This document shows positions 56,043 through 62,887 of a DNA stretch of 64,000 nt, one piece after another; positions within the stretch are counted from its first letter, which is position 1, and the number at the start of each line of letters is the position of its first letter. The stretch comes from Thermomicrobiales bacterium. Lineage in GTDB: Bacteria > Chloroflexota > Chloroflexia > Thermomicrobiales > UBA6265. The notes beneath the pieces were generated by a model that was given only the letters and a program-made list of their open reading frames with translations, had not been told where the DNA came from and searched no databases. The DNA is taken from NCBI GenBank assembly GCA_019637585.1, contig JAHBVL010000003.1:153827-217826 (forward strand). Direction: 5' to 3'. The position numbers were made by a program, and so were the translations under genes.

Positions 56043-56136
56043 ACTGGTAACTGGTAACTGGTAACTGGTAACTGGTAACTGGTAACTGGTAACTGGTAAC
56101 TGGTAACTGGTAACTGGTAACTGGTAACTGGTAACT
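56043..56136. repeat. Heptanucleotide tandem array (ACTGGTA)n
   Basis: About 13 almost perfect copies of ACTGGTA. It lies 22 bases after DUF1684 and before the convergent hypothetical gene. It is followed by a CGGACTACGGACC tract (56142-56170) in 8- to 9-bp units. Such runs can change copy number by slippage, so the number may vary between strains or reads. Confidence 0.9.
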
Positions 56137-58491: not shown

Positions 58492-60936
<2,445 letters not shown>

Positions 60937-60950
60937 TAGACTGTCTACGT

Positions 60951-61034
60951 CGGGCTTGATCGCCTTGGTGGGAGAATTGCTGCCCACACCGAAAGGTGAG
61001 CTCCACTACGGCGAGTGGAGAGGTGATCAACCCG
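60951..61034. ncRNA. Candidate four-helix structured RNA or terminator between lon and recJ
   Basis: P1 pairs 60951-60964 with 61022-61034 (CGGGCTTGATC/GATCAACCCG with one bulged C, then two more pairs and a G-U). Inside are three helices: GTGGG/CCCAC (60968-60987), CACC-GAAA-GGTG with a GNRA tetraloop (60987-60998), and CTCCAC/GTGGAG (61001-61020). This is a closed four-way junction. AATTTCTTTTC follows on the plus strand. I recognise no known RNA family (not tRNA, SRP, glycine or c-di-AMP riboswitch). Strand is uncertain because the design is symmetric. Confidence 0.5.
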
Positions 61035-61116
61035 AATTTCTTTTCATCCCCTCTGGAAATCTGAAACGAGCCTCATCCCAAATTCGCGAAAACGCGGCTC
61101 CGTCGCCCTGCTGAGA

Positions 61117-61135
61117 GGGCGCACGCCGTGCGCCC
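61117..61135 (-). terminator. Hairpin at the end of recJ
   Basis: GGGCGCAC/GTGCGCCC stem with a GCC loop, directly next to the recJ stop (61136-61138). On the minus strand it is followed by TCTCAGC, not a T-run. Confidence 0.5.
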
Positions 61136-62887
61136 CTACTGATCGCCCGATGCCCGAAAGTCCAGGACCTTCACGTCGGGCCGTATCACTCCCTGCCAGC
61201 GGTCCACCGAAAGCGTGCAGGCCACGTCGATCCGGCGCCCGATCGACAACTCCCTCGCTCGCCAGGCGGCGCCGAAAAAAGGAGCTCGCACCTCCCCCGT
61301 CGGTCCTCTCCAGACGAGTCGCAGGTGAGTGTTGTCCTTGCCCAGCGGTTCGGCCCGGACGATGGGGACATTCGGCACGACAAACACCGGTTCCGGATTG
61401 GCGGCGCCAAATGGGCTGAGCCGCATCACGAGCCGGGCGATGTCGAGGTTGATGTCGGCCACCGACAGTTCAGCGTCGATACGCAGCTCCGGCTCCAAGG
61501 GGAGAGCCATCGCCGCAAGCACCGCATCACCGACGAGCGCCGCACGGAATTCGTCGATCGCCTCCCGGCGAATGGTCAAACCGGCCGCTTGGCTGTGCCC
61601 ACCGTGCCGCTCCAGCAGCGCTTCGTGGCGTTTCAGCAATTGGGCGATGTGCAATCCGGAGACCGACCGGCACGACCCAACCGCGACGCTCCCCTCTTCC
61701 CGGAGCAGGATCACCGGCCGCCCCAGGAGCTCGACAAGTTTGCCAGCCGCCAGACCGAGCACGCCTGGTCGCCATGTGTCGCTGCTCTCCACGAGTATCG
61801 GTGCAGCTTCGAGCGCCGGGTCTTCATCGAGCCTGGTCAGCACATCGTGGAGCACCTGTTCGGTTTCCGCCCGCCGTTGATGATTGAGCCGGTCGAGCTC
61901 GGAGGCCAGCGGGTATGCGGCCACCTGATCGGGAGCCAGCAGGAGCTCGAACCCCAGCCTCGGGTCGGCCATCCGGCCGGCCGCATTCAAGCGCGGGGCG
62001 ATCCCATAGCCGATGTTGACCGAGTTGACTGTGGAGAGATCGATCGTGGCCACAGTGCAGAGCGATTTCAAACCTGGACGAGGCTCCCGGCGCATCGCCC
62101 GAATGCCTTCCCGGACGATCTGCCGGTTGTATCCCGTCAGTGGCGCTACATCCGCCACCAGGCCAAGCGCCGCCAGATCGAACAGCTGCCCCGAGCCACC
62201 CTGTTCGCGAAATCGCGAAAAGGAGGGAAGGTCCTGCAAGGCATGCACGACCAGCAACGTCAAGCCGGCCGCGGCCATCTCATGAAAGTGGCCGCCATCG
62301 GGTCTGGCCGGCGACACGGTGATCGCACCCGCCGGACCGGTTGTGGTCATGTGATGGTGGTCGATGATGATCACATCGATCCCGTGTGACCGGGCGATCG
62401 TCACGCCCTGTTCGTCGGTCGACGCGCAATCGACCGCGATCAGCAGATCGACACCGGCATCGGCGAACTCCTGCAGCGCGACGCGACTCAGCCCGTACCC
62501 CTCATCCCTGGTTGGCAACCGGACAATCAGCCGGGATGGGTCGGGCATCGCCTGCTGGAGGGTCAAGGTCATGATCGCGGCCGAGGTCATGCCATCGACG
62601 TCGTAATCGCCAAACACCGCGATCGTTTCGCCATGCCGAACGGCCTGGTCGATGCGCGCGAGCGCCATGTCGAGATCGGGCAACAACCCCGGATCGGGCA
62701 ACACAGAAGTGGAGTGATCGAGAAACGCCTCGGCCTCGGCGCGGCGCCGGAACCCCCTGCCCGCCAGCAGGGCGTGCAGGAGCGAGTGCTCGTGGAGCTG
62801 TTCGCAATCGAAGCGCGGCGGTTGGGGCATGAGCCACGTGCGAGGCGCGGCTTTGCTTCTGATGGAACGCGGCGCGGTTGCCGTCAT
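61136..62887 (-). CDS. recJ: Single-strand-specific exonuclease RecJ
   Basis: A 583-residue DHH-family 5'-3' exonuclease of recombination and mismatch repair. Motif I is VFGDYDVDGMTSAAIMTLTL, motif II DLLIAVDCASTDEQ, motif III IIIDHHHMTTTGPAGAITV. The DHHA1 part has GLGLAAGKLVELLGR-like sequence and the RHGGHSQAAGLTI motif, and the C-terminal OB domain is present. In motif II the usual DxG reads DCASTD, a small change from VDCGIT. The size is typical. It converges with lon. Confidence 0.94.
   Translation of the reverse strand: MTATAPRSIRSKAAPRTWLMPQPPRFDCEQLHEHSLLHALLAGRGFRRRAEAEAFLDHSTSVLPDPGLLPDLDMALARIDQAVRHGETIAVFGDYDVDGMTSAAIMTLTLQQAMPDPSRLIVRLPTRDEGYGLSRVALQEFADAGVDLLIAVDCASTDEQGVTIARSHGIDVIIIDHHHMTTTGPAGAITVSPARPDGGHFHEMAAAGLTLLVVHALQDLPSFSRFREQGGSGQLFDLAALGLVADVAPLTGYNRQIVREGIRAMRREPRPGLKSLCTVATIDLSTVNSVNIGYGIAPRLNAAGRMADPRLGFELLLAPDQVAAYPLASELDRLNHQRRAETEQVLHDVLTRLDEDPALEAAPILVESSDTWRPGVLGLAAGKLVELLGRPVILLREEGSVAVGSCRSVSGLHIAQLLKRHEALLERHGGHSQAAGLTIRREAIDEFRAALVGDAVLAAMALPLEPELRIDAELSVADINLDIARLVMRLSPFGAANPEPVFVVPNVPIVRAEPLGKDNTHLRLVWRGPTGEVRAPFFGAAWRARELSIGRRIDVACTLSVDRWQGVIRPDVKVLDFRASGDQ

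Follow-up and report, generated by a model that had tools for sequence, protein, structure and literature searches.

What is the element that lies between lon and recJ on contig JAHBVL010000003.1 of a Thermomicrobiales bacterium (assembly GCA_019637585.1), and what might it do for its host? In a 64,000-nt stretch of this contig (positions 153,827 to 217,826 of the forward strand, hereafter the window), positions 60951-61034 of the (+) strand fold as a four-way junction, in which an outer stem (P1) encloses three hairpins, the middle one capped by GAAA. This fold is the one described in a first-pass annotation made from the letters alone, which had noted an outer stem, three inner helices, a GAAA tetraloop and a T-rich run. 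The minimum free energy (MFE) of 60951-61035 (+) was -42.9 kcal/mol (z -5.2), a stability that none of 3000 dinucleotide shuffles reached, against -34.8 kcal/mol (z -3.7) for the reverse strand of the same stretch, and the element with its flanks (121 nt) gave z -3.0. The coordinates had, in the first place, been picked by a structure-seeking reader, so that z by itself says little here and the comparative evidence is decisive. No known family claimed the element: neither the window nor 20 loci carrying relatives reached the gathering score of any Rfam family (locally, there was only a meaningless match at E = 3), as the annotation had anticipated, and a tRNA search found none.

Given a structured stretch outside all named families, the question is whether it has relatives. 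At the DNA level, BLAST against its own genome and 60 relatives recovered the element itself plus short chance matches and no second genomic copy; the best of the chance matches (G016:C442) fell inside an apparent permease coding sequence. The lon-recJ spacers (0-323 nt) of ten other family genomes that kept the convergent lon-recJ order lacked the element, and a RecJ search across GTDB contigs produced no congener. A covariance model made from the single window sequence nevertheless matched two loci away from lon, in G002:C23 (E 3.7e-7) and G008:C172 (E 1.2e-5). These two and the window element have UGGUGGGAGAAU in common, while their P1 and P4 helices are largely rewritten by compensatory changes, and across the three sequences 13 pairs had changed on both sides versus 4.8 in shuffles. 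Thus the stem conservation that the annotation had made its test is absent at the lon-recJ locus but present for the element at other loci.

Iteration with a three-sequence model over 158 genomes of the class, and then with a 23-sequence model (R3) over 32 genomes of the family, yielded 25 credible copies in 10 genomes and 8 genera, all from one Thermomicrobia-like family. A 26th match, in G019 at E 0.035, was set aside, as were weak R1, R2 or R3 matches in G047, G034, G000:C33, G157 and G136, the last of them within a larC-like coding sequence. No further copies appeared in 400 genomes spread across the phylum, searched with stricter filters, and among the 120 loci returned by a pattern scan of viral contigs, R3 matched none of the 80 on which it was run. 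The window copy scored 76.3 bits (E 3e-15) against R3, of which its own sequence is one of the 23 training rows, and it carries all the features by which the family is defined, namely the four-way junction, kissing loops 2 and 4, UGG after P1 and a -10 box. Because the single-sequence model matched unlinked loci in other genera, and because the helices there are maintained by compensatory changes, we consider it confirmed that the window element is a real small structured RNA of a previously undescribed family.

The same 23 RNAs allowed the fold to be examined pair by pair. In the model-fitted alignment, 29 of the 30 pairs showed a double change, which are the compensatory changes in P1 and the inner helices that the annotation had named as support; double-change cells numbered 173, versus 53 in shuffles and 14-31 when slid. 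As a model-fitted alignment leans toward its own structure, a second fold was derived from a sequence-only MAFFT alignment, and this gave the same junction, with double changes at 19 of 21 pairs. In the alignment fold P2 gains an extra outer pair, and the second G of the junction GG is paired; in the window this is probably G60968 with C60987. Loops 2 and 4 pair with each other at a mean of -6.6 kcal/mol within the same RNA versus -4.1 when permuted between RNAs (0 of 20,000 permutations), the window contact comprising six pairs, two of them G.U. Shared ancestry can somewhat inflate this permutation test; even so, the register of the contact and the alternation of CG, GC, UA and AU at the kissing positions among RNAs argue that it is real. 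Among paired positions G.U outnumbered A.C by 45 to 8, indicating that the (+) strand is the functional RNA. In four RNAs (L307, L303, L311 and the second copy of L306) loop 2 contains an inserted extra hairpin of ~15-20 nt, and the MAFFT alignment puts a similar one in loop 2 of the first copy of L279; the kissing segment is mostly retained in these five.

These results bear directly on the idea that the element is a mobile cruciform acting as DNA, which the annotation had raised, or a fold that arose by chance. Copies at unrelated loci across genomes would suit a mobile cruciform, but DNA BLAST found no second copy in the genome, and the G.U-biased covariation, like the promoter described below, indicates that it is the RNA strand that matters. 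A chance fold is excluded by the single-sequence model matches, the covariation and the kissing-loop test. Both explanations, already contradicted by covariation, are in our judgement extremely improbable.

How, then, is the RNA made? The annotation had suggested a small RNA derived from the lon transcript, of which the small RNA stands and the lon origin is not supported: the TAGACT of an extended -10 element ends 8 nt before P1 (Table 1), and a -10 box matching at least 4 of 6 positions lies near P1, just 5' of it, in 23/23 RNAs examined (background 23%). The more demanding pattern TGnTAnnnT occurred in the last 30 nt examined of 15 of these 23 (background 0.6%). The RNA is predicted to start near 60949-60951, and the U-rich tail beyond P1 may end it, both ends being placed from sequence features. 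Across the family the 3' end is frequently pyrimidine-rich; at one locus (L301) TTTTTTT follows directly after P1, and other relatives vary. At eight loci (L302, L307, L309, L311, L303, L275, L301 and L277) a TTGAC motif precedes the -10 box by ~7-10 nt, a distance too short for an ordinary -35 element; the motif may be an operator or an uncommon kind of promoter element.

The tails, and the position between convergent genes, could be taken to mark a bidirectional terminator or a 3'-end stabiliser, serving lon and recJ here and the linked gene described below elsewhere. The U-rich tail in the window and the TTTTTTT at L301 fit this proposal, and the tail may still end the transcript, but a long U-run is missing from most copies, a terminator scan was negative at the element, and the ten other convergent lon-recJ pairs do without it. 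Moreover, an independent -10 box in every RNA examined is not what a terminator calls for, the kissing loops and invariant GG surpass what a terminator needs (the annotation had likewise judged the structure excessive for that purpose), and the G.U excess and conserved unpaired core bases weaken a role acting in both directions. We therefore regard a terminator as unlikely.

The surroundings of the other copies offered a further clue to function. Nineteen RNA copies adjoin the 3' end of a gene for a protein of 130-190 aa. A protein profile built from seven aligned neighbours of the first RNAs retrieved 18 genes in 9 genomes, 11 of which were new with respect to the RNA search; one of these ran off its contig, and the RNA adjoined the other ten without exception (10/10), at E 3.5e-9 to 3e-4 within 31 kb. 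RNA and protein distances were correlated (Mantel r 0.35; 5/10,000 permutations), and gene and RNA together make a module of ~0.6 kb. A 131-aa open reading frame (ORF) beside the G008:C172 RNA, first taken as a partner, had no match to the profile, and no further effector gene was consistently found next to the RNA loci. At 16 of 17 loci the gene is convergent to the RNA, its stop codon lying 8 nt inside the RNA edge (-8 nt) in 8 of the 17 and between -27 and +7 nt in 15; at L297 the gene frame reads on through the RNA, and at L301 the RNA lies 3' of the gene, shares its strand and carries a separate TATACT box. Fifteen of 17 such loci carry one RNA, and L298 and L306 carry two. At L292 (G007:C89), two RNAs in tandem come immediately after the end of a gene that, by its sequence alone, resembles a 2'-5' RNA ligase (ThpR-like).

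Type I antitoxins of the TxpA/RatA kind are made from RNA and toxin genes that converge and overlap at their 3' ends. The convergent layout here, with a stop codon within P1 at most loci, resembles theirs and would suit an antisense RNA that silences the mRNA of the linked gene through 3'-end pairing. The family departs from that kind in that its overlap is usually only ~8 nt, in that RNA and gene share a strand at one locus (L301), where no antisense pairing is possible, and in its conserved tertiary RNA fold. The small overlap, the same-strand locus and the maintenance of the fold by compensatory changes, which antisense pairing would not need, make such a mechanism improbable, and the existence of intact RNAs without the gene speaks against it as well.

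What the linked protein does must be approached through distant resemblances. Searches of Pfam, NCBIfam, PADLOC and PDB sequences found no match for it, including none to the ToxN, CptN or TenpN families, and PHROGs gave none that was convincing. For the family consensus, the only Pfam lead was the RNase toxin BrnT (E 0.025, under the cut-off), which shares the BECR fold with RelE and colicin D, and the only plasmid match was the C-terminus of a head protein like MuF, a virion protein; viral, phage and plasmid searches with the linked protein found no homolog except one weak MuF-like match. In hhalign comparisons with two MuF C-terminal domains, whose PBECR label rests on the literature since Pfam names only their N-terminal part, the family scored 40.5 and 24.1, against a maximum of 18.4 for 400 decoy ORFs. 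According to a study of polyvalent proteins (PMC5512222), MuF of phage Mu has a C-terminal PBECR domain, and the PBECR active site combines a His of the first helix, replaced by Arg in one family, with a C-terminal Thr/Ser. At the matching places, the linked family has His in 16/18 and Arg in 2/18 members, and Ser/Thr in 15/17, residues that would correspond to the PBECR active site. Membership of the BECR fold is, from these alignments, no more than likely. The family protein is like the RNase domains at the C-termini of PBECR/MuF proteins in profile and in its His...Thr/Ser pattern, but unlike MuF and BrnT, the published form of which has a protein antitoxin, BrnA (PMC11980606), it is free-standing, host-encoded and paired with an RNA, and it meets no Pfam cut-off.

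We consider it probable that the RNA and the protein together form a toxin-antitoxin module, in which the RNA is the antidote to the adjoining predicted BECR-type RNase. This reading builds on what was computed here: a family of RNAs with a defined secondary and kissing structure, strand and promoter, and a tight link between these RNAs and the protein. That the protein binds the RNA, acts as an RNase, is toxic and is neutralised is inferred. Under it, an RNA of ~90 nt would be transcribed from its own extended -10 promoter, would fold as a four-way junction locked by the kissing interaction of loops 2 and 4, and would keep the predicted RNase inactive by binding it, in the manner of type III RNA antitoxins. 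Were the RNA to fail, the freed protein would attack cellular RNA.

Several observations weigh against this reading. The linked protein passes the cut-off of no curated family; the relatives are limited to one family and come mostly from metagenome-assembled genomes; and 6 of the 25 RNAs, including the window copy, stand without an intact adjoining toxin gene, so that another role for the RNA is conceivable. The strongest rival is one in which the RNA is a cofactor, guide or substrate within a ribonucleoprotein effector or an RNA-processing pair, for instance processed by the nuclease or directing it to a target. Tight linkage, a structured RNA, invariant junction bases and an RNase-like protein suit any stable complex, this one included. 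Yet the six RNAs without a protein are structurally intact, and no consistent further effector gene accompanies the loci; both facts fit an antidote better. We hold such a role to be possible, though rather unlikely.

The orphan RNAs merit closer description, as the window copy is one of them. With tblastn and all family proteins, no toxin or remnant of one was detected within ~1.5 kb of it. The other five orphans are G000:C1:418669, two in G008, one in G020:C400 (near a contig end) and one in G003:C33, the last with a possible short toxin remnant (weak, E 0.003). The sole toxin gene detected in the window's genome, G000:C1:687306-687680, has its own RNA. All helices, the kissing loops and the promoter are retained in the window copy, which argues against long decay; we propose that this intact orphan may either work in trans against the G000:C1:687306-687680 toxin or be a leftover antidote. 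In the surroundings of the orphans, the second one in the window's genome (L325, G000:C1:418669-418755) is flanked by direct repeats of the GGCAAAGGGCAAAAGG type, and the orphan at L293:2863-3051 (G008:C374) lies beside the end of an array resembling clustered regularly interspaced short palindromic repeats (CRISPR), with repeat GTTTCAATCCCCACCCCGGCGAGAGCCGGGGTGCAAC at a spacing of 71-72 nt. A toxin-RNA module, G003:C54:11842-12367, is found ~5 kb from the C-terminal part of that genome's lon; that it and the window orphan are both near lon is perhaps coincidence.

To our knowledge, protein-binding RNA antitoxins are known for few toxin folds, namely ToxN-like proteins, Abi_2 proteins and the AvcD deaminase. 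In the type III systems ToxIN, CptIN and TenpIN, a tandem-repeat RNA lies upstream of, and is co-transcribed with, a toxin of the ToxN fold, with a terminator separating the two, and the RNA forms an H-type pseudoknot. The present family is like these in that a noncoding RNA whose structure includes a loop-loop or pseudoknot contact lies beside the gene of a small predicted endoribonuclease, and its RNA would be expected to act, as theirs does, through protein binding (PMC5086642). Unlike the type III arrays, the RNA is usually a single four-way junction with kissing loops, of which the window has one copy; unlike the type III operon, it lies downstream of the gene, is convergent with it in 16/17 loci and has its own promoter; and the protein is BECR-like rather than of the ToxN fold. 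With no repeat array, no operon and a different toxin, the module is by definition not a member of type III. In the AbiF/RCd22 pair of Clostridioides difficile, the structured RNA contacts the toxic protein directly and so neutralises it, whether encoded in cis or supplied in trans (PMC12373285). There too a conserved structured RNA accompanies a protein, although neutralisation in our family is inferred; AbiF, in contrast, belongs to the Abi_2 proteins, which makes it no BECR-like protein, and has links to Cas13 ancestors; RCd22 lies upstream, contains two abiF motifs and is presumably transcribed together with the toxin gene.

We rate as evenly balanced the broader proposal that these modules represent a new toxin-antitoxin class, in which a single four-way-junction RNA with kissing loops, transcribed independently, silences a free-standing BECR-fold RNase whose gene lies tail-to-tail with it, and in which scattered orphan RNAs protect in trans. 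If true, one of the commonest toxin folds, BECR, would come under RNA-based control, and antitoxins would gain a new architecture, a four-way junction with kissing loops, which would also pose a tractable problem of RNA-protein recognition. The orphan copies, for their part, permit a direct test of stand-alone RNA antidotes in bacteria.

Table 1 Parts of the RNA element and its neighbouring genes, in window coordinates
Feature	Positions	Strand	Basis and remarks
Extended -10 element, TG-A-TAGACT	60934..60942	+	Sequence; TG belongs to the lon stop codon
P1, 5' strand	60951..60965	+	Fold; compensatory change at 14/14 P1 pairs in the 23 RNAs
P1 pairing	60951-60954 with 61031-61034; 60956-60965 with 61021-61030	+	Fold
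Junction GG after P1	60967..60968	+	G at both positions in 23/23 RNAs
P2 hairpin, stem 60968-60972 with 60983-60987	60968..60987	+	4/4 modelled pairs with compensatory change; 97.8% paired
P2-loop half of kissing interaction, UUGCUG	60977..60982	+	Loop-permutation test
P3 hairpin with GAAA loop (60991-60994)	60988..60997	+	94% paired in the 23 RNAs
P4 hairpin, stem 61001-61005 with 61016-61020	61001..61020	+	5/5 pairs with compensatory change; 98.3% paired
P4-loop half of kissing interaction, CGGCGA	61009..61014	+	Loop-permutation test
P1, 3' strand	61021..61034	+	Alignment; stop codon of the relatives' convergent gene falls here
U-rich tail (TTTCTTTT); probably the 3' end or a terminator tract	61037..61044	+	Sequence
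lon, upstream neighbour, outside the module	58492..60936	+	ORF, Lon relatives
recJ, convergent neighbour, outside the module	61136..62887	-	ORF, RecJ relatives

Two repeats elsewhere in the window were recorded in passing. Just beyond the recJ stop codon, at 61116-61138, lies the palindrome GGGCGCACGCCGTGCGCCCCTAC, a genome-wide repeat of the repetitive extragenic palindromic (REP)-like kind with 28 matches at ≤3 mismatches (a few of which are one palindrome read on both strands), several of them clustered ~75-120 nt apart. At 56043-56136, the 7-nt unit ACTGGTA is repeated perfectly in tandem, in 13.4 copies.
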